Assembly (NCBI RefSeq): GCF_000381005.1
Contig: NZ_KB908379.1
Location: 248,001-312,000, forward strand
DNA: 64,000 nucleotides
Origin: Selenomonas bovis DSM 23594
GTDB taxonomy: Bacteria; Bacillota; Negativicutes; Selenomonadales; Selenomonadaceae
Reading direction: 5' to 3'
This document shows positions 4,635 through 64,000 of the stretch, in pieces. Below the pieces are notes generated by a model that saw only the letters and a program-made list of their open reading frames with translations, was not told the origin of the DNA and searched no databases. Numbering within the stretch: position 1 is the first letter of the stretch; each line of letters begins with the position of its first letter. The translations under genes were made by a program, and so were the position numbers.

Positions 4635-4683
4635 GGATATCCCTCCAAATCATTCATGTAAATTTCTTATGAAATCTATACAG

Positions 4684-4713
4684 ATTATAGCATAGTACAG
4701 TGTACACTCGCAA
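4684..4713 (-). promoter_or_regulatory. Promoter of the TAXI-TRAP operon
   Basis: Minus strand: TTGCGA (4708-4713), an 18-nt spacer, TATAAT (4684-4689). The spacer contains the perfect palindrome AGTGTACACT (4699-4708), a reasonable operator position. Upstream at 4753-4770 is a second imperfect palindrome, TTGTATACATGCGTACAA, of the kind bound by GntR/FadR-type regulators. Protein identity is an inference. Confidence 0.65.
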
Positions 4714-4841
4714 GGGATATTCCAGTTATTTTTCATAAAGTGTTCAGTTATATTGTATACATGCGTACAACGAAACCGTTTTGTTCATTTCATCTCAAAC
4801 TAATCGCATTTTCCCGTTGCCGCGCTTCAGCGCGAAACTGA

Positions 4842-6236
4842 TCAGCCGCGCTCCTCGCGCGGCATCGCGAGCTTGAGTGCCTCGCCAATGGTCGCCGCGC
4901 CATAGAGCGTGATGCCGGAGACGCCGTCAGCGATCTGTTCGTAGTTCTTGCGCGGCAGGACGACATGACGGAAGCCGAGCCGCTTCGCCTCATGCACGCG
5001 CAGCTCCGCCTGCGAGACGGCGCGTACCTCGCCGGAAAGGCCGACCTCGCCGAAGACGATGGTCTTCGGCCGCAAGAGGCGTCCCGCGAAGCTCGACGCC
5101 ATCGCGACGCAGATGCCGAGATCCGCCGCGGGCTCATCGATACGGATGCCGCCCGCGACCTTCACGTAGACATCGCAGGCGCCGATCTGCAGGTGGACGC
5201 GCTTCTCGAGCACGGCGAGCAGGAGCTGGATGCGCTTGATGTCGACGGCGTCTGATGTTCGGCGCGGCGGCACGTAGGGCGTCGGCGCGACGAGCGCCTG
5301 CAGTTCGACGAGCAGCGGACGCGTGCCCTCAACGGTCGGTATGATGACCGTGCCGCTGTCCGCCTCGCGCTCGGAGAGAAAGAGCTTCGACGCGTCCGGC
5401 ACATCGACGAGCCCTGCCTCGCGCATCTCGAAGAGACCGAGCTCGTTCGTGCTGCCGAAGCGGTTCTTCACCGCGCGCAGCACGCGGTACTCTGCGTTGC
5501 GCTCTCCCTCGAAATAGAGCACGGTGTCGACAATATGCTCGAGCACGCGCGGCCCCGCGAGGCTCCCCTCCTTCGTCACATGACCGATGAGGAATGCCGC
5601 AATGCCGTGCGTCTTCGCGATGCGCAGGAGCGTGCAGGCGCACTCACGCACCTGCGAGACGCTGCCGGGCGCCGAGGCGATGTCCGGGCGCAGCATCGTC
5701 TGGATGGAGTCGATGACGAGCAGCGCGGGATGCGTGTTTTCGATATGCGCCTCGATGGTCTCGAGGTTCGTCTCGCTCACGACGAGCAGCGTATCCGCGA
5801 GCGCGTCGAGGCGGTCGGCGCGCATGCGCACCTGCCGCGTGCTCTCCTCGCCCGTCACATAGAGCACCGTCTTCCCCTGCCGCGCGACCTGCGCGCACGC
5901 CTCGAGCGTGAGGCTCGACTTGCCGACGCCCGGATCGCCGACGATGAGCACCATCGAGCCCGGAATCACGCCGCCGCCGAGTACGCGGTCAAGCTCCGGC
6001 GAGCCCGTCGTGAAGCGCGGCAGGTCGCGCGTCTCAACCTCCGCGATAGGCTGCGGCTTCTGCGCGTCCGAGAGCCCGAGGCGCACGCCGCCCTTCCCCG
6101 CGCCCTGCGTCTCCTCCGGCACGATCTCCTCCACCATCGTATTCCAGCTGCCGCAGCCCGGGCACTTGCCGAGCCACTGCAGGCTGTCATAGCCGCACTC
6201 CTGACACACATACCGCGTCTTTTTCTTTCTCGCCAT
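4842..6236 (-). CDS. radA: DNA repair protein RadA
   Basis: RadA/Sms helps branch migration during recombinational repair. The 464-residue protein has the complete family layout: a C4 zinc finger (Cys11, 14, 25, 28), Walker A GDPGVGKSS at residues 100-108, the RadA-specific KNRFGS motif in the middle, and a Lon-protease-like C-terminal domain. The longer open frame adds 13 residues, but ATG at 6236 is preceded by AGGAGG 6 nt away and gives the usual MARKKK start. It is not obviously in an operon: upstream is a 433-nt non-coding stretch, and the TRAP genes downstream have their own promoter. Confidence 0.96.
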   Translation of the reverse strand: MARKKKTRYVCQECGYDSLQWLGKCPGCGSWNTMVEEIVPEETQGAGKGGVRLGLSDAQKPQPIAEVETRDLPRFTTGSPELDRVLGGGVIPGSMVLIVGDPGVGKSSLTLEACAQVARQGKTVLYVTGEESTRQVRMRADRLDALADTLLVVSETNLETIEAHIENTHPALLVIDSIQTMLRPDIASAPGSVSQVRECACTLLRIAKTHGIAAFLIGHVTKEGSLAGPRVLEHIVDTVLYFEGERNAEYRVLRAVKNRFGSTNELGLFEMREAGLVDVPDASKLFLSEREADSGTVIIPTVEGTRPLLVELQALVAPTPYVPPRRTSDAVDIKRIQLLLAVLEKRVHLQIGACDVYVKVAGGIRIDEPAADLGICVAMASSFAGRLLRPKTIVFGEVGLSGEVRAVSQAELRVHEAKRLGFRHVVLPRKNYEQIADGVSGITLYGAATIGEALKLAMPREERG

Positions 6237-6669
6237 CCTGCGCCTCCTACCCATATGAAAAACATCCACGCGCATCCCTCATCCCTGCGCACGGACGACC
6301 TGGAACACGTCATGGCACAAGCTGAAGCTTCTGCTTCAATGCTCTTTGCAAAGTCTGTGAAAAATTTTACATGAAAAATTGCAAGTGCAAATTGTTCTTG
6401 CGATTCCACTTCCTGTACTTCTTTCGCCCTAAGGTATGAGGCAAATATCGACCAGCACTCCTTGCGGATGCGCTCACATATCCACTGGATGAACGGTTCG
6501 CAGTCATCGCGATCCATTTTGCAAGGCGTTTGGAGCGCCTGCGATTCGCCGTGCAGGCTTCCTGTCAGCGTCTGGCGGTACATCCGGGACTGCGGCCACA
6601 ATTATGACCCCATCCATAACGGACGAGGTTTTATGGCGCATTCGATAAGGGATTCCCCGAGACGCCTGC
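6237..6669. other. 433-nt intergenic stretch between fabK and radA
   Basis: No convincing gene. A minus-strand frame is open from 6601 into radA and contains an E/K-rich stretch, but it overlaps radA out of frame and has no ribosome-binding site of its own. The segment holds one copy of a dispersed 60-bp repeat (6544-6605) shared with the other side of fabK. Confidence 0.5.
6544..6605. repeat. Dispersed ~60-bp repeat, copy 1
   Basis: Begins TCGCCGTGCAGGCTTCCTGT and runs through a CTGGCGGTACATCCGGG segment. The same sequence, with about ten differences, recurs in the same orientation at 7917-7978 on the other side of fabK. Its function is unknown. Confidence 0.7.
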
Positions 6670-7617
6670 TTACGATATCGAGATGGTATTGGCACGGTCG
6701 AGCGCGTCCTGCGCCTCGATGATGATGCGGTTGATGATCGTCTCGACTGGCTCGATTCTATCGAGCGGCAGAAGACTCTGCCCAGCCTGCATCATGCCGT
6801 TCTCAGTATCGCCGTCGACGGCGGCCAGTTTGTTTGTCCCCGTCGCCAGTTTCAGCAGTTCTTCCTTCGATGTCTTACCCTCATATTCCATCTTCACAAA
6901 ATTCTCGGAGAACTTGTTTTTCAGACCGCGCACCGCGCCGCCGATCGTCAGTCCCGTCACAATGGAGTCAGTATCGATCGCCTTGAGGAGTTTTTCCTTC
7001 ATATTCTGGTGGACAGGGCATTCCTCGGCGACAAGGAAACGCGTCCCCATCTGTACGCCTGACGCCCCCATAACGAGCGCCGCTGCCAGTCCGCGACCAT
7101 CGGCGAAACCACCCGCCATGACGACGGGAAGACTGACTGCAGGAATGACCTGCGTCATGAGCGGCATGGTTGCGATCGAGCCGATGTGCCCGCCCGCTTC
7201 CATACCTTCAACGACGATGGCATCCGCTCCCTTTTCCTCGACGCGCTTGGCAAGCTTGACATTCGGCACAACGGGAATGACCTTGATGCCAGCCGCATGG
7301 AGTTTTTCAAAATAGGGCACGGGATTGCCCGCCCCGAGTGTGACAAAGGCCGGCTTTTCAGTGCAGATGACATCGACGATCTCGTCTTTGTTCGGCGCCA
7401 TGAGCATGACATTGACGCCGAACGGCTTCTGCGTGAGCGTACGACAGCGGCGAATCTCTGCCTGCGTGTATTCCGTCGTGCGCCCGCCCGTCGAAATGAT
7501 GCCAGCTCCACCGGCATTCGATACGGCAGCAGCAAGCCCCGCGTCGGAAATCCACGCCATTGCGCCTTGGAGGATCGGATACTGGATACCAAGAAGTTCT
7601 GTCAGTCGTGTTCCCAT
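6670..7617 (-). CDS. fabK: Enoyl-ACP reductase II (FMN-dependent, FabK type)
   Basis: FabK carries out the last reduction of fatty-acid elongation with FMN and NAD(P)H. The 315-residue protein matches the family along its length: N-terminal YPILQGAMAW, PFGVNVML, TLGAGNPVPY, the catalytic-loop EGMEAGGHIG, and FMN-phosphate binding segments VMAGGFADG and GVQMGTRFL. The nearest alternative is nitronate monooxygenase, which shares the fold, but the EGMEAGGHIG loop and overall length favour FabK. A purine-rich AGGAAGG lies about 10 nt before the ATG. It stands alone, flanked by non-coding sequence and repeats instead of the fab cluster usual in streptococci. Confidence 0.85.
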   Translation of the reverse strand: MGTRLTELLGIQYPILQGAMAWISDAGLAAAVSNAGGAGIISTGGRTTEYTQAEIRRCRTLTQKPFGVNVMLMAPNKDEIVDVICTEKPAFVTLGAGNPVPYFEKLHAAGIKVIPVVPNVKLAKRVEEKGADAIVVEGMEAGGHIGSIATMPLMTQVIPAVSLPVVMAGGFADGRGLAAALVMGASGVQMGTRFLVAEECPVHQNMKEKLLKAIDTDSIVTGLTIGGAVRGLKNKFSENFVKMEYEGKTSKEELLKLATGTNKLAAVDGDTENGMMQAGQSLLPLDRIEPVETIINRIIIEAQDALDRANTISIS

Positions 7618-7728
7618 AATAAATCGTCCTTCCTGAAGAATGATATTTTTCAGCTTCTTTTGCGGATGGCCGGGCTACAATCAAGACAATTTTATCACGA
7701 ATATGTCACGCAAAGAAGGGAAAATTCA

Positions 7729-7908
7729 AGGAACCGCTGATTAAATGAGGTGCCCTGAATTTGCGTAGATGCGCTGTATCTCTCTAGGAGACAAACCGGA
7801 GGCGTAGCAGCCAAAACGCTCCATCGCGTTTTGTGCTGAGGATTGTAGGGCGACGAGAGGACAGTGCAGATACGCAAAGGCAGGGTGCCGAATGAATCAG
7901 TGGTTCCT
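7729..7908. mobile_element. MITE-like palindromic element, full-length copy (180 bp)
   Basis: The ends are imperfect inverted repeats (AGGAACCGCTGATTAA on the left; the complement of TTGAATCAGTGGTTCCT-like sequence on the right), and the long arms can fold on each other around a short centre (near 7812-7838). It has no coding capacity. A related copy lies in the opposite orientation at 17830-17991. The direct flanks here are CA/CA, where the other copies have TA/TA. Confidence 0.8.
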
Positions 7909-7916
7909 CAAGTACA

Positions 7917-7978
7917 ATTCGCCGTGCAGGCTTCCTGTCCGCATCTGGCAGTATATCCGGGGGGGTGGCCACGATTGC
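7917..7978. repeat. Dispersed ~60-bp repeat, copy 2
   Basis: Same orientation as copy 1 at 6544-6605 and starting only 8 nt beyond the MITE. The conserved core is CGCCGTGCAGGCTTCCTGTC. A GC hairpin (GCGCGGC/GCCGCGC, 7983-8001) follows it. The 7618-8092 interval contains no other recognised gene. Confidence 0.7.
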
Positions 7979-8044
7979 TCTTGCGCGGCGGTGTGCCGCG
8001 CTTCAGTTCATGATGCTGTATCTGCGATGAGAAAAGCAACGTCC

Positions 8045-8092
8045 CAAAAAAGGCAGCGCCTACGCCTTTTCCGACATAGGTGCTGCCCTTTC
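8045..8092 (-). terminator. Terminator of the ctsR-clpC operon
   Basis: On the minus strand an approximately 14-bp stem (AAAGGGCAGCACCTA with TAGGCGCTGCCTTT) is followed by a run of six T. It comes directly after the stop codon of the small frame downstream of clpC, which supports that frame lying inside the transcript. Confidence 0.85.
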
Positions 8093-8251
8093 TCATTTGC
8101 CGTTTTTCATCTGCTGTCTCTCGCGCTGCCTGCGCCGCACACGGCGCACGCAGGCGCGGCCGAGCCAGACGAGCGACCAGAGGAGATTCGCCGCGAGATT
8201 GCCGAGGCGCGCGGTGCGGCCACGCGGCGCGAGGTGATTACGCCTCCGCAT
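8093..8251 (-). CDS. Possible 52-residue Arg-rich membrane protein after clpC
   Basis: The ATG at 8251 lies inside the last codons of clpC, with GGAGG just 4-5 nt upstream, so translation would be coupled to clpC. The frame ends exactly before the operon terminator. The product is strongly basic ([17 protein letters not shown] at the start, RRVRRRQRERQQ near the end) with one hydrophobic stretch of about 17 residues (NLLWSLVWLGRACV). No family is recognised. A chance frame in GC-rich DNA is possible; its position and ribosome site are the only support. Confidence 0.4.
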   Translation of the reverse strand: MRRRNHLAPRGRTARLGNLAANLLWSLVWLGRACVRRVRRRQRERQQMKNGK

Positions 8252-58675: not shown

Positions 58676-59638
58676 TCACTGGAATGTCTGCCAGGCATCC
58701 ATGACATCGAGAAACGCGCCATCGAAGCCGGCATCGATGATCTCATCGAGATAGGCATCCGCACTGCCGTAGAGGATGCGCCGCCAGGGGCGCGACCAAT
58801 ATTTCACGCGATAGCTGCCCGGCCACGCGGGATTCGGCTGCGCGAGCCAATCGGGGCGTTTTGCCGCCCAGTGCTTCTGCCAGTAAGGACGATAGTCGGC
58901 GGCCTCGCCGACGCTTAAATAAGCGAGCACGAGCCTGCGGCCGCCTTGCGGTTTTTCCTGAAGGCGCGCGACCTCCTGCCGCGTGAGCGGCGCTGCACCG
59001 TAATAGAGATCGATGATGAGCAGATCGGCCGGTGAAGCGCGCAGAGCCGCAAGATAGGCCGCGCGGCTCCCAAAACGGCCGGGATTGAGCAGGATGAGGA
59101 AATTGCGCACAGCCGCGAGCCGCGCGACGGAACGGCTGTTTTCTCCCGTGAGCGGCCCCTGCGGCAGCACGTCAAGCTCCCTGCGCGGCACCGTCATGCT
59201 CACATAGCCTGCCGCGCGGCCTTGCGCGCGGTCGGCCGCCGCGCTCGCCGCATCGCTCACATAGTCGAGCGTGAAGACCGCCTTGCCGGCTGCCAATGGC
59301 TTTGCAAGCATCGCCGCCAGATAGGCCGCCATCTCCGCGGATCTCGGCACGGCGGCGTCCTCCACCGACTCGTAGAATACAGATTCCGTGAGAAAGCCGT
59401 CGAGCGCGCCGAGGAGCCTCGCTACGTTTTCCTCCGGATTCTCCCTCGTCACCTCGAGCAGCCCGGCCGCGCCGTTGCCGACGAGCAGGAATCCCGGCTG
59501 CCGCGCCTGCGCGTAGCTGTGTATGTCAGCAACGAGGCGAACCATCTCCGTCTGCGGTGAAGGCCGCGCCTCGCAGCCGGAAAACAGCAAGCCGAAGCCA
59601 AGGCAGGCACAGAGCATTTTTCTGAAACGCAAATCCAT
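58676..59638 (-). CDS. GH114-domain lipoprotein (PelA-hydrolase-like)
   Basis: The 320-residue protein has a lipoprotein signal with lipobox LLFSGC (Cys21) and a GH114 TIM-barrel: the family signature VLAYLSVGEAADYRPYW near residue 235, then PDWLAQPNPAWPGSYRVKYW and the catalytic-side GFDGAFLDVMDAW near the C-terminus. GH114 enzymes cleave alpha-1,4-galactosaminogalactan; in PelA the same domain trims Pel. Here only this hydrolase domain is present; the deacetylase part of PelA is absent. The position directly after the barrel gene in a Pel operon supports a role in polymer processing. GGAGG is only 3 nt from the ATG. Confidence 0.85.
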   Translation of the reverse strand: MDLRFRKMLCACLGFGLLFSGCEARPSPQTEMVRLVADIHSYAQARQPGFLLVGNGAAGLLEVTRENPEENVARLLGALDGFLTESVFYESVEDAAVPRSAEMAAYLAAMLAKPLAAGKAVFTLDYVSDAASAAADRAQGRAAGYVSMTVPRRELDVLPQGPLTGENSRSVARLAAVRNFLILLNPGRFGSRAAYLAALRASPADLLIIDLYYGAAPLTRQEVARLQEKPQGGRRLVLAYLSVGEAADYRPYWQKHWAAKRPDWLAQPNPAWPGSYRVKYWSRPWRRILYGSADAYLDEIIDAGFDGAFLDVMDAWQTFQ

Positions 59639-59655
59639 GCGCCTCCTTTCCTCTT

Positions 59656-61848
59656 TCACAGGGAGCGGCTGTACCAAAGCGCCATGCCCCAGCCATGGTA
59701 CTCGACCGAAGCCTCATCACGGCGCACGTAACGCTCGAGGGAGAACGTGAGTTGCTCCTCCGGCCGCGGCTGCCAAGTGAGTCGCGCGAGCAGGCCGAAG
59801 CGGCTCCAGCCGCCGTTCATGAGGTCAGCGCCAGCCTCCTCGCCGCGCGCAAGGAGGCGCCGCTCGATATCGCTGCTGCCCGCGCTCACATGCTGGTAGG
59901 ATGCCACAGCCTGCCAATGGAGCTGCGGCGTCACCGTATGGCGCACGCCGATGCTCGCGAACTGCTCATAGACCTTGCCCGCGTCGTAGCCGTGCACCGC
60001 ATTCGTGAAATCAAACGCGAGATAGTGGAAATACTCGTCGCGCGGCGCGATCTTCCGGTTGGAGAGCCAGCGCAGCCCCCACGTCTCGCCCTCGCGGTAG
60101 CGCGTAACGCCTGCAACCGGCACCTCCCTGCGCATGGCATTTTTCAGCCAATCATCGTATTCAAAGGTGCCCTGCCGTGCCTGCGACGTGCTGCTGTGAC
60201 GCAGGCCGATGCGTGTCTGCCGCCGCTCACCGATATGTTGATAATATACATCCTCTGCAAGCTGCGTGCCGGGATGCACGGCGGCGGACGGCGACTCCCG
60301 CGCGTAATCGTAGGAAGCGCGCCACGCGCAGGAGAGCGTCGCATCGAGACTGTCGCGCTCCGTGAAATGATGCAGCCACTCGACGGCCGGGATGTACTCC
60401 CAGCCGGCGCCGAACGATGTCATGGCTGCGACGCCCTCGGGCAGAATTGCCGACTGATACACGCGGCTCTCGCCCGTCGGCACGTTCAGCGTGAAATGGT
60501 AGCGCACGCTGTCGCGCGGGTGGTCGCCATGCAGTGTGATGCCAAGCACCGTATCGGTAAAGCCGCTCACATGGCCGCCTGCATAGCCGGAGTCCGACGC
60601 GACGCGTCCCGCGGTCAATGAGAAATCGACCATGTGCCCGTCCTGCCGGCGGCTGGAGAAATAGGAAAGCGGCAAATAAAGCTGATGGCCCGCGCGCCTG
60701 CCGCGCCAGCTGTAATACTCAAAGCCAGCCTGAACCCCTTCGCCCTCGCCGAAATGGGCCAACTGCTCCGTCGCCTCCCTCTCCCAGACTTGCGCGCTCA
60801 CGAGATCCGCTGCGGCCTCGCGCGCCCAATCCTCTGCTTCACGGACATCGTCTTCTGCCGCCGCTTCCTCCTTTTCCTGCTGCGCTGCCTCCGCGGCCGC
60901 CTGCGCTGCCTCCGCCTCTGCCTGCGCTGCCTCCTGCTGCGCGTCCGCCGCCTCCATCGCCGCGTCCTCTGCCGCGCTCATGAGATCATCAAGCTGCGCC
61001 TCCGCATCGCTGAGCACCGCCTCCGACGCGTCGAGCGACGCGGCGAGCGCATCGAGCCAGCCACGGTAAGAGCTCTCGACCTCCTCCATGCGGTCCGGCA
61101 TCGCTGCGAGCGCCTCCTCCGCGAGACGCTGCGCCTCCTCAAGGCGCCGCTGCTCATAGCCGACCGCCTCACAGGCTGCGGCGACAGCCGCCTCCCGATC
61201 CCGCTGCGTCGCCGCCTGCGCTGCGGCGGCTGCCTCCTCGTACGCGCCCTCTGCACGCGCGCTCTCCTCAGCGGCAGCCGCCGCGTCCGACCGCAGTGCC
61301 TCCACCTCGGGCGCGTAGTCAGCCACCGCCTGCTGCGCTGACTGCGCCGCCTGCGCTTTCTCCGCGGCCACGGCCCGCGCTGCCGTAAGTGCCTGCTGCG
61401 CTTCCCTGAGCGCCTCGCGGCTCGCAGCGAGGTTTTGCCGCGCGTCTGCAAGCGCCTGCGCCGCCTCTCTCTTTCCGGCCTGCGCCGCCGCGAGATTTTC
61501 CTGCGCCGCCTGCACGCCCTTTTTCGCCTCGCGCAGGTTGCGCTGCGCCGCGTGATAATCAGCGAGCTGCGTACCCGCGTCACGCAATGCCTGCACCTCC
61601 CCGGTCATCTCATGCATCACCTCATGCGCAGCAGCCGCCGCGAGCGCCGCGCGCATCAGGCAGACGCCGGAGACGGAAAGGAGCAGCGCGCCGCGCCGCA
61701 CCAAAGCGGCGCGTGCCTGCCGGATGCGGCAGGCGCGGCGGCGCGCCCGCGTGAGACGGTAGACGCCGTGCCCTTCCTCTGCGCGCACTTGCTGCGTACA
61801 TACTTCCTGCGCGCGGCGCTGCCGCGCCCTCCGCCGCGTCATCCTCAT
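59656..61848 (-). CDS. Coiled-coil plus predicted outer-membrane beta-barrel protein of the Pel operon
   Basis: The 730-residue protein begins with a very long basic region (residues 1-52, many Arg) before a hydrophobic signal core (GALLLSVSGVCLMRAALAAA). Residues about 75-345 are an almost uninterrupted Ala/Glu/Gln-rich coiled coil. Residues about 355-730 show alternating hydrophobic/polar strands with many aromatic residues (YYSWRGRRAGHQLYLPLSYF, DEYFHYLAFDFTN) ending LWYSRSL, the look of an outer-membrane barrel. In proteobacterial Pel systems PelB combines TPRs with a barrel; here a coiled coil takes the place of the TPRs. It overlaps pelG by 4 nt. Function is inferred from context and architecture. 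Confidence 0.75.
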   Translation of the reverse strand: MRMTRRRARQRRAQEVCTQQVRAEEGHGVYRLTRARRRACRIRQARAALVRRGALLLSVSGVCLMRAALAAAAAHEVMHEMTGEVQALRDAGTQLADYHAAQRNLREAKKGVQAAQENLAAAQAGKREAAQALADARQNLAASREALREAQQALTAARAVAAEKAQAAQSAQQAVADYAPEVEALRSDAAAAAEESARAEGAYEEAAAAAQAATQRDREAAVAAACEAVGYEQRRLEEAQRLAEEALAAMPDRMEEVESSYRGWLDALAASLDASEAVLSDAEAQLDDLMSAAEDAAMEAADAQQEAAQAEAEAAQAAAEAAQQEKEEAAAEDDVREAEDWAREAAADLVSAQVWEREATEQLAHFGEGEGVQAGFEYYSWRGRRAGHQLYLPLSYFSSRRQDGHMVDFSLTAGRVASDSGYAGGHVSGFTDTVLGITLHGDHPRDSVRYHFTLNVPTGESRVYQSAILPEGVAAMTSFGAGWEYIPAVEWLHHFTERDSLDATLSCAWRASYDYARESPSAAVHPGTQLAEDVYYQHIGERRQTRIGLRHSSTSQARQGTFEYDDWLKNAMRREVPVAGVTRYREGETWGLRWLSNRKIAPRDEYFHYLAFDFTNAVHGYDAGKVYEQFASIGVRHTVTPQLHWQAVASYQHVSAGSSDIERRLLARGEEAGADLMNGGWSRFGLLARLTWQPRPEEQLTFSLERYVRRDEASVEYHGWGMALWYSRSL

Positions 61849-63311
61849 GGCTCCCGCCCCCTCTCAAGATCGACATAGCGCGCGCCGTAGAGCCAACGCG
61901 TCAGCACGCCCTGCGGCGGCCGGTAAAAAACCGGCTGCGCACAATAAACATAATAATCGATGCGCCGTGCAAACTGCGACAGATACCGCCACCCCACCGC
62001 CAGTCCCAGCCCCGCGGCCAAGAAAAACGTAAATCCATAGCCAGCCGCCCCCAAGAACAGGAATCCCAGCACGCCGAAAACCGCATTGGCCGCGAGAAAG
62101 ACCGCCGCTGTACGCAGGACGAACTTCTGGATATCGAAATACGTGAGCAGCACGATGAGCAGCTGCAAAATGCCCGTGAAAAACGCCGCGAAGAGCAGCA
62201 CATCATAGAGGCTCACGAGATGGTAGTCTACCCCCGCCAGGGAGAGAATGTAACCGCCGAGCGCGAGAAAAACCAGTGTGAAGACGAACTGGAACTCGAC
62301 GACCTGCCGCAGCTCGAACCAGAGCGTATAGACGAGCTCCCGCCGCGCGTCCTCGATCTCGCGCAGGTTTCCCCGCCGCGTGATCGCGTCGAAATACGCC
62401 GCGTATTTCTCATAGAACTGCGTCTCCGCTGCCACGACGAAGAGCACCATGAGCGGCAGGATCGAGAGGAACGCGAAAAACGTCACCGCGTCATATCCCG
62501 GCGCGCAGCGGTATGTCTCCGCCACCGTCACGCCCCACGGCCCCAGCCAGACGAGGAAATTCGGCAGAAAGATTCCCATCGTGTAGAAAACCGCTGAGAA
62601 GAAAAGCCGCCAATGGCGCTCGAAATACGGTAAGAACGCGAAATGCTGCCCGTCCCGAGGCAGGCCGAAGTACTGCGCGATATGCACGAAAAAGAGGCAG
62701 ACGAGCAGGCCCATGCCGACATCCATCGAAATCAGCGCGGCGCGTACCGGCGCGGTCCATCCCGCCGCGAGCAGCCCCGCGCAGAGCGCGACGCTCAGTG
62801 AGACGCTCGCGGCAAAGCCCGTGAGCAGCCGCTGGAATTTCTTGATGGCCGTGAGATAGACGCTCTGCGTCCAGATGAGCAGGAGCTCGAGGAAAAAGAC
62901 ATACGTGAGCCCGGCCTCCACAAAGCCGAGCGGCGACGCGGCGAAAAACACCGCAGCCACCGCACTCCCGAGCAGCGTGAGCAGCGCGCCCATGCCGAAG
63001 AGCGACGCCGTCACATCCCGGTAATGCCCGACGGAGAGGCAGTCCGCGAGATAGCGCGTGAGCACCATCGTGAAGCCGCTCGAAAGGATCTGCGAGAATA
63101 CGAACACATAGGCGACCGATGCCACAAAGAGTATGGCATCCTCCGCCGCCACGCCGTGCAGGAAAAAGAGCAACTGCACGGCGAGCACCATGCCTGTCAT
63201 GAGCAGGAACGGCCCCGTCGTGACCACGGACGCGTATGCGTACGCCTTGACATGCCCCACCGCCGTGCGTGCGCGGAAAAGCTTCTTGAGCTCGAAGCCA
63301 ACGCCTGCCAT
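61845..63311 (-). CDS. pelG: Pel polysaccharide inner-membrane transporter PelG
   Basis: The 488-residue MATE/Wzx-like membrane protein has about twelve hydrophobic segments. It starts MAGVGFELKKLFRART, which is the invariant PelG N-terminus, and has large cytoplasmic loops (YEKYAAYFDAITRRGNL). It would export Pel across the inner membrane together with PelD/E/F. Start and stop overlap the genes on both sides by 1 and 4 nt. Family assignment is confident because of the N-terminal motif and PelF beside it. Confidence 0.93.
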   Translation of the reverse strand: MAGVGFELKKLFRARTAVGHVKAYAYASVVTTGPFLLMTGMVLAVQLLFFLHGVAAEDAILFVASVAYVFVFSQILSSGFTMVLTRYLADCLSVGHYRDVTASLFGMGALLTLLGSAVAAVFFAASPLGFVEAGLTYVFFLELLLIWTQSVYLTAIKKFQRLLTGFAASVSLSVALCAGLLAAGWTAPVRAALISMDVGMGLLVCLFFVHIAQYFGLPRDGQHFAFLPYFERHWRLFFSAVFYTMGIFLPNFLVWLGPWGVTVAETYRCAPGYDAVTFFAFLSILPLMVLFVVAAETQFYEKYAAYFDAITRRGNLREIEDARRELVYTLWFELRQVVEFQFVFTLVFLALGGYILSLAGVDYHLVSLYDVLLFAAFFTGILQLLIVLLTYFDIQKFVLRTAAVFLAANAVFGVLGFLFLGAAGYGFTFFLAAGLGLAVGWRYLSQFARRIDYYVYCAQPVFYRPPQGVLTRWLYGARYVDLERGREP

Positions 63312-64000
63312 CAGCGCCTCACCTGCCCTTCCTCCTCATAGATGCGCCGATACGACGCGATGAAATGCTCATACGTATAACCGCGGCGGCAACGCTCATA
63401 GCCGACAGCCGCCATCTCTTTCCTCAGCTTGTAGTCGCGCGCGAGCCGCAGGATCTCCCGCGCCATCGCCTCGTAGTCCATCGGCGCGACGACCGCGCCC
63501 GCCGTGCCGAGCGTATCCATGCTGTCGCCGTAGATGAGCTCGCGGCAGCAGCCGACATCCGTCGTCACATACGGACGGTGCGCGGCGAAGCCCTCGAGCA
63601 CCGAGAGCGGCTGCCCCTCGCTGATGCTCGAGAGCACGAGCACATCCATGCGCGGCAGATAGGCCGCGACATCGATCGAGCCTGTGAACGTGACGCCCTC
63701 GATGCCGAGCGTCTCTACCGTGCGGCGGCAGAGCGCGACATACTCCGGATCCTCCTCCATATTGCCCATCACATAGAGCTCCGTCTCCGGCAGCGCGCGG
63801 TGCACGAGGAAGAACGCGCGCAGGAGCGTCACGATGTCCTTGATGGGCACGACGCGCACGACCGCGCCGATGACGATCGGCCCCGCGTGCTCCGTGAGCT
63901 CCGGGACGGCTGCGAAGCGCTCCATGTGGATGCCGTTCGGCACGATGCCGATCTTTCGGGGATCGCAGCCGAGCTCCGCCTCGATCCTCGCGTTGTGCTC
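63311..64000 (-). CDS. pelF: Pel glycosyltransferase PelF (C-terminal part, runs off the window)
   Basis: The visible 229 residues are the C-terminal half of a GT4-type glycosyltransferase: IGIVPNGIHMERF, a GAVVRVVPIKDIVTLLRAF donor-binding loop, and the E-x7-E region SSISEGQPLSVLEGFA. PelF polymerises GalNAc/GlcNAc from UDP-sugars in the cytoplasm. The frame continues to the window end without a start, so the gene extends beyond 64000. Its TGA overlaps the pelG ATG by one base. Confidence 0.9.
   Translation of the reverse strand, partial: EHNARIEAELGCDPRKIGIVPNGIHMERFAAVPELTEHAGPIVIGAVVRVVPIKDIVTLLRAFFLVHRALPETELYVMGNMEEDPEYVALCRRTVETLGIEGVTFTGSIDVAAYLPRMDVLVLSSISEGQPLSVLEGFAAHRPYVTTDVGCCRELIYGDSMDTLGTAGAVVAPMDYEAMAREILRLARDYKLRKEMAAVGYERCRRGYTYEHFIASYRRIYEEEGQVRR

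Follow-up and report, generated by a model that had tools for sequence, protein, structure and literature searches.

The window analysed here is a stretch of 64,000 nucleotides of Selenomonas bovis DSM 23594 (Dongibacter bovis in current NCBI naming; Selenomonadaceae, Negativicutes). Four genes occupy the minus strand of its last 5.3 kb: the 3' part of pelF, then pelG, a gene of 730 codons and a gene for a GH114-type glycoside hydrolase (Table 1). Neighbouring genes overlap or almost touch (TGATG and ATGA junctions; the start codon of the 730-codon gene lies on the pelG stop, ATGA) and are therefore read as one operon, to which the GH114 gene also belongs. An earlier note on this DNA had placed a Pel exopolysaccharide (EPS) operon at 59656-64000; its coordinates and its naming of pelF and pelG were right (NF038011, PF16933), and the GH114 gene as first called, from 59677, overlaps that range by 22 bases. 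The subject of the present account is the 730-residue protein, a candidate for the outer-membrane exit of Pel.

Table 1. Positions of the genes at the locus and of the parts of the 730-residue protein.
Feature	Position	Strand	Evidence
730-aa protein with helical arm and 16-strand barrel, proposed outer-membrane exporter	59656..61848	-	AlphaFold2; relatives in 66/380 genomes
Residues 1-72, basic n-region with RMTRxRxR-type motif and putative Sec-type signal	61633..61848	-	Alignments, motif scan
Helix 1, residues 75-228 (154 residues)	61165..61626	-	AlphaFold2, alignment
Helix 2, residues 253-364 (112 residues), net charge -26, leading into strand 1	60757..61092	-	AlphaFold2, charge count
Predicted 16-strand barrel, residues 369-729, hydrophobic residue at end	59662..60744	-	AlphaFold2, fold matches
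pelG, 488 aa, inner-membrane exporter, EPS-E family	61845..63311	-	PF16933 E 4.4e-120, whole profile covered
pelF, C-terminal 229 codons	63311..64000	-	NF038011 PelF E 2.4e-58
Full pelF, 475 aa, running past window end	L002:7312-8739		PF11997/DUF3492 E 6.7e-77
GH114 / TM1410-type glycoside hydrolase, probably the PelA hydrolase as a gene of its own	58676..59677	-	PF03537 E 8.9e-19

The open reading frame of 730 codons is a real gene, since 66 of 380 Negativicutes genomes contain relatives of its barrel, with identity down to about 19%. An AxA-like site is read from alignments near residue 70-72. Ahead of the signal peptide lies a basic stretch of about 50 residues, which is unusual. Such an extension, strongly basic and of RMTRxRxR type, is present in many Selenomonadaceae copies (also L110:9079-9400 and L072); the copy of genome G027 has the motif four times, with Pro-Ala-Phe-Pro-like linkers between. 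Signal peptides are short in those copies from other families that were read.

Two long helices followed by one closed barrel of 16 strands are predicted by AlphaFold2 for the window protein (13 sequences; mean predicted local distance difference test, pLDDT, 79; predicted template modelling score, pTM, 0.59) and for its mature relative from S. ruminantium HD4 (32% identical; pLDDT 85, pTM 0.64). Strands were counted by hand on the DSSP lists of both models. In the window protein the helices are separated by a break at residues 229-252, and strand 1 starts within about 4 residues of the end of helix 2. In the relative the helices cover residues 10-138 (129 residues) and 185-297 (113), and one extra hairpin accompanies the 16 strands. 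The composition given in the earlier note, a signal, about 270 helical residues and a barrel of about 375 residues, is borne out, as is its expectation of a closed barrel of 14-18 strands. Its single helix of 270 residues and 40 nm is rejected, because both models show the break and some structural alignments pair the mature N-terminus with the N-termini of other barrels.

This pairing, with alignments that start no more than a few residues from the mature N-terminus, is seen in 8 of the 50 rows listed for the window model and in 10 of 50 for the second model, as judged from alignment ranges that give first and last aligned residues only. Partners in those rows are CymA, CdiB, FhaC, FadL-type channels and two BAM-complex chains. 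It is absent from the remaining 42 and 40 listed rows; CdiB 6wil and CymA 4d51 pair in one model only. N-terminal parts of CymA, CdiB, FhaC and FadL sit within the barrel lumen. As helix 2 is continuous with strand 1 and the N-terminus pairs at the barrel, a fold-back that brings the first part of helix 1 into the lumen is suggested. The helices thus probably form an antiparallel hairpin of about 112 residues, about 17 nm long; that its end sits in the lumen is a suggestion to which moderate weight is given, as is the hairpin itself.

Alanine is invariant in helix 1 at positions 101, 108, 115, 122 and 129, that is, at each seventh residue (alignment of 13 sequences). Periodicity of alanine alone is not significant in helix 1 (520 of 2000 shuffles reach it) and weak in helix 2 (34 of 2000); for hydrophobic residues and alanine together it is reached by 10 of 2000 shuffles in helix 1 and 28 of 2000 in helix 2. 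A frame of 1200 codons in L055/L077 (S. ruminantium ATCC 12561) carries a large insert between presumed barrel strands 7 and 8, which would form an extracellular loop in the place of the Plug-I of PelB. Several other copies are also long (929-979 codons).

Family scans of the window proteins covered Pfam and NCBIfam, with Pfam matches inspected at E up to 1. For the 730-residue protein no Pfam family passes the cut-off, and its Pfam and NCBIfam matches are spurious (WipA_Phos, SMC, SelB, ASRP). At E up to 1 it matches no TPR, SLH or MCE family, nor BCSC_C (PF05420). Comparison of the barrel with known families by profile, as the earlier note had advised, gave no Pfam or NCBIfam family and no PDB sequence match. 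Fold matches of the barrel include BamA (Z 20.4), CdiB (20.2), PelB 9h80 (19.6; root-mean-square deviation, rmsd, 4.0 over 267 residues), BcsC 6tzk (18.8; rmsd 4.2 over 285 residues) and CymA (18.5). Among the fold matches listed, CdiB, BamA, CymA, OprB and OprO lie within 1-2 Z units; with scores so tied, the fold means an outer-membrane barrel of this size and not PelB in particular.

The 380 Negativicutes genomes were searched with profiles for the barrel, PelG and BCSC_C. The barrel profile matches in 66 genomes, a number unchanged with the wider profile A4 (27 rows chosen for diversity), and PelG is above cut-off in 59; matches under the cut-off in G035 and G171 were left out of this count. 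Where PelG matches are split (G014, G022, G071) one piece was used, in G022 the C-terminal piece on the contig of the barrel. Both proteins occur together in 57 genomes, so that 57 of the 59 PelG genomes carry the barrel. It begins at most 4 kb downstream of pelG on the same strand in 52 of the 59, a result of the survey of pelG neighbours that the earlier note had called for, and at 6.8 kb in one more. It lies on another contig in four (G028, G003, G011, G071), of which G011 and G071 have the PelG match close to a contig end and G071 has fragmentary matches. The two PelG genomes without a barrel match are G129, where the contig stops downstream of pelG within what looks like the signal and the opening part of the helix of such a protein, and G138, where it stops 166 bases past the PelG match. 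Barrel matches downstream of pelG are in two pieces about 1.5 kb apart at G019:C1:1078919-1081538, perhaps an interrupted copy.

Among the 321 genomes without PelG above cut-off, the barrel is found in only 9. Fisher's test of PelG against barrel gives p about 2e-55, a value that marks a strong association and not that many independent events, since most genomes belong to one family. In the family of the window (151 genomes) PelG is above cut-off in 52 and the barrel is found in 52 by a single-sequence search. A phylum-wide draw of 159 genomes gives two barrel matches only, both from the family of the window. BCSC_C is found in none of the 380 genomes, with a positive E. coli control; profiles of PelB, PelC, PgaA and AlgE were not searched.

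Loci were also collected by a peptide-pattern search, which gave 15, all from Selenomonas or 'uncultured Veillonellaceae' records, and which says nothing on distribution. Rows of A3 and A5 are 12 of these 15 loci plus the window, without L068 (near-duplicate), L076 (unknown bases) and L077 (large insert). Rows of A1 are 20 of 30 barrel loci plus the window, without the window's own copy and near-duplicate, truncated, split and insert-bearing copies.

Upstream, just outside the window (L002), the operon continues with DUF2194, PelE-like and PelD-like genes. The DUF2194 protein (PF09960, E 1e-113) is inferred to be the PelA deacetylase from its gene place and membrane-anchored N-terminus; the name DUF2194 is not used in the cited part of the Bacillus cereus PelADA paper (PMC13254593). 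The gene of 294 aa is called PelE-like by place and conservation across loci only. The PelD-like protein (751 aa, L002:11442-13697) is so called from matches to an N-terminal epimerase-like domain and a GAF domain, both below cut-off. The GH114 protein matches TIGR01370 at E 2e-41, yet under the cut-off of that model; its gene has a likely start at 59638 and a lipobox-like LFSGC, missing from some relatives when N-termini are compared. In three other families (L107, L125, L126) the order GH114-PelD-PelE-DUF2194-PelF-PelG-barrel is kept. In a fourth (L123, L124) GH114 comes after the barrel, as in the window; pelE and pelF of L123 were missed by the simple picker of open reading frames. The Pel cluster of L120 (G013; 4675-8120) has two DUF2194 genes, and its gene order is rearranged in the stretch that separates pelG from the barrel gene.

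The barrel is found at 68 places, of which 53 are beside PelG and 4 are in PelG genomes but on a different contig; 7 belong to other EPS clusters and 4 are orphans. Relatives thus occur mainly beside pelG, as the earlier note had supposed. Its proposal of a separate, non-PelB route for Pel in Negativicutes survives the two refutations that it had named, a missing closed barrel and relatives mainly away from pelF/pelG. The protein is not confined to Pel: seven copies lie in other EPS clusters. Two of these clusters (G288, G295) comprise GGDEF, DUF2334 (deacetylase-like), GT2, BcsB and the barrel. Three (G182, G210, G211:C12) comprise GT2, a protein with a below-cut-off bactofilin match, a weak polysaccharide-deacetylase match (passing the cut-off in G210 alone) and the barrel. 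Two (G214:C19, G211:C14) have a BcsA-like GT2-PilZ synthase after the barrel. Some neighbours were scanned around the non-Pel copies, and one for G211:C14; G211:C12 was counted by its gene layout, which is like that of L112. The G214:C19 cluster (L108:2791-9830) also has MBOAT, AlgX-like and GH5 cellulase genes, and its gene content suggests an acetylated cellulose-like polymer in a Negativicute.

In a tree of 27 barrels the Pel copies L107, L124, L125 and L126 group with six copies from non-Pel clusters (support 100/99); L123, the fifth Pel copy from other families, lies outside that group. The Pel label requires three changes on the tree, at least two of them forced by well-supported branches. 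The exporter would accordingly have switched partner at least twice, in one direction or the other.

PelG, helices and barrel lie in one open frame of 1135 codons in G214 (G214:C1, L107:7171-10578). A signal-peptide-like stretch is still present at the junction. If real, the fusion would make a single chain of the channel and the inner-membrane exporter; the alternatives are that a stop codon was lost, that the sequence contains an error or that translation starts internally. As proof of a physical link the fusion was dropped, being known from one genome, with three further genomes of that family lacking PelG.

The 730-residue protein is quite probably the outer-membrane exit channel for Pel made by PelF and PelG, and a member of a Negativicutes family that replaces TPR-barrel exporters and serves several synthases. 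This reading is supported by the barrel in 57 of 59 PelG genomes, the kept gene order, the G214 frame and a closed 16-strand barrel in two models. It is further supported by the presence of the family in clusters of other EPS synthases, by the absence of BCSC_C matches from the 380 genomes and by phylum-wide matches confined to the family of the window.

For relatives it is established or proposed that Pel is polymerised by PelF, taken across the inner membrane by PelD, PelE and PelG, deacetylated by PelA and let out through the PelB barrel (PMC7112168, PMC12141448). In the mechanism proposed, the protein would be exported by Sec, and its C-terminal barrel of 16 strands would insert into the outer membrane. 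The two long anionic helices would form an antiparallel hairpin that extends through the periplasm for about 17 nm, pointing to PelG and to the DUF2194 deacetylase with its membrane anchor; in B. cereus the membrane helix of the deacetylase is modelled against PelG (PMC13254593). The polymer would leave PelG, be deacetylated, be led along the arm, whose negative charge may guide a chain with free amines, and pass out through the barrel. The N-terminal end of helix 1 may act as the gate of the lumen, which would open once the helix start leaves it. This gating is modelled on FapF, for which a helical plug linked to the coiled coil has been proposed (PMC5557850).

Several points weigh against the exit-channel reading. 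No sequence match to a known exporter was found (a search of PDB sequences with profile A4 gave none at E up to 1), and in fold PelB does not match more closely than CdiB, BamA or CymA. Placement of the helices rests on models with pTM of only 0.59 and 0.64, read through secondary-structure lists and fold alignments. The co-occurrence statistic overstates independence, most genomes being of one family. G028 and G003 have room downstream of pelG, yet the barrel gene is elsewhere; both look like true relocations. Four of the 68 copies (G027, G057, G220, G240) are orphans with no EPS gene in the neighbours scanned, that of G057 on a contig of 4.8 kb and that of G220 cut by the contig end. Lumen-facing residues are about neutral (12 K+R, 13 D+E by a crude alternation rule), whereas the PelB lumen is anionic (PMC12141448). 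The rule is unreliable, because under it 17 charged residues come to face outwards, and lumen charge was dropped as a sign of a cationic substrate. Arms and barrels are more anionic in Pel-linked copies (28, against 7 from other EPS clusters; Mann-Whitney p 0.0007 and 0.001). This difference is not relied on, phylogeny being a confounder: 23 of the 28 are from the family of the window, and Pel copies of other families overlap non-Pel copies in arm charge.

The protein may instead be one subunit of a channel of three or more chains, its helices building a tunnel or platform of parallel coiled coils as in TolC or FapF; this would change the mechanism and leave the role in export as it is. Tight coiled-coil packing would suit the alanine repeated at each seventh residue of helix 1, and the stalks of FapF (PMC5557850) and OmpM (PMC10628300) are trimeric. 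Both single-chain models, by contrast, have two helices and a single closed barrel, and the first residues of the protein are put at the barrel in some structural alignments; the multi-chain arrangement is regarded as rather unlikely.

An autotransporter-type surface adhesin, its helical passenger displayed outside and the barrel serving as carrier, would make the operon one for a matrix and a matrix-binding protein. It agrees with an N-terminal helical part ahead of a C-terminal barrel, with N-terminal residues aligned to the N-termini of other barrels in some rows, and with the aggregation promoted by autotransporters in Veillonella (PMC7549365). It is nevertheless given little credence: 16 strands are predicted here, against 12 in an autotransporter-like barrel (PMC5557850), and the junction of helix 2 with strand 1, within about 4 residues, is read as lying on the periplasmic side. 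The near-fixed place behind pelG and the presence in other EPS clusters also speak against an adhesin, and Pel would be left without an exit. Less probable still is a tether or porin like OmpM of Negativicutes, which would hold the outer membrane over the Pel machinery without passing the polymer. OmpM does combine a coiled-coil stalk with a 16-strand barrel (PMC10628300), whereas in the window protein no SLH family is matched at E up to 1, the protein is tied to EPS clusters, and few genomes lacking PelG above cut-off have the barrel (9 of 321). Neither the adhesin nor the tether provides a known way out for Pel, and both leave the association with other synthases unexplained.

The crossing of the second membrane by synthase-made EPS has so far been unexplained in diderm Firmicutes. 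Their Pel clusters look Gram-positive in layout and show no TPR-barrel gene in the clusters examined, yet an outer membrane is present. If the exit-channel reading is true, the barrel family is the missing exit and a TPR scaffold is not required. The occurrence of one family beside different synthases suggests outer-membrane export as a swappable module, which would bear on how polysaccharide export arose as the outer membrane was acquired by some lineages or lost from them. A wider formulation is put forward tentatively, as somewhat doubtful: an exit-channel class of the Negativicutes' own, with, in a single chain, an antiparallel hairpin arm that spans the periplasm and a 16-strand barrel plugged by the N-terminal helix end, interchangeable among Pel, BcsA-like (possibly acetylated-glucan) and GT2-BcsB synthases, replacing the TPR-barrel exporters of Proteobacteria class-wide and in one lineage fused to PelG, so as to connect inner-membrane exporter and outer-membrane channel. 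PelF and PelG homologues are present in a biofilm-forming Selenomonas sputigena and absent from the non-biofilm ATCC 33150, one strain each (2026, PMC13339959). A role of the system in biofilms of the mouth and the rumen is thus possible; the cited part of that report does not name a barrel exporter.

Known ingredients are Pel synthesis, 16-strand polysaccharide barrels and the helix-plus-barrel proteins of Negativicutes (OmpM, long MlaD). Among titles and abstracts of the best-ranked open-access papers, preprints not included, none describes a family of exporters that lacks TPRs and goes with such clusters. Word counts find neither Negativicutes nor Selenomonas in the two papers of 2020 that treat Gram-positive Pel clusters. 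Gram-positive pelDE-ADA-FG clusters (B. cereus, streptococci) resemble the present operon, as its genes are read here, in a separate deacetylase with an N-terminal membrane helix and a separate hydrolase (PMC7112168, PMC13254593), and in a PelD that can carry an N-terminal epimerase-like domain (PMC7112168); they differ in that the barrel gene is missing from the published core pelDEADAFG.

PelB of Pseudomonas aeruginosa, taken together with PelC, is likewise encoded with Pel genes (pelF, pelG) and has a C-terminal 16-strand outer-membrane barrel, here predicted, behind a long periplasmic helical part. That part is a TPR superhelix in PelB and two long helices (154 and 112 residues) in the window protein. 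No sequence homology was found by profile A4 against PDB sequences, the PelB profile itself not being compared. Barrels of PelB, BcsC and PgaA have 16 strands, and those of solved exporters, AlgE included, 16 or 18 (PMC12141448). BcsC and PgaA share the 16-strand barrel type, behind different synthases, and unlike the present family are TPR-based. OmpM has a coiled-coil stalk and a 16-strand barrel in one chain (PMC10628300); it differs in its SLH domain, none being found in the 730-residue protein, whose gene goes with those for polysaccharides. A helical region and a C-terminal barrel are also combined in the long MlaD of Veillonella, which is proposed to bridge the envelope (PMC10665443); MlaD differs from the present protein in its MCE domain, its ten-strand barrel and its role in lipid trafficking (PMC10665443). 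The amyloid exporter FapF, chains of which are among the fold matches of the S. ruminantium HD4 model, is similar in being a barrel exporter with a periplasmic coiled coil and a helical plug; it is a trimer with 12 strands and a protein substrate (PMC5557850), against the 16 strands predicted here.

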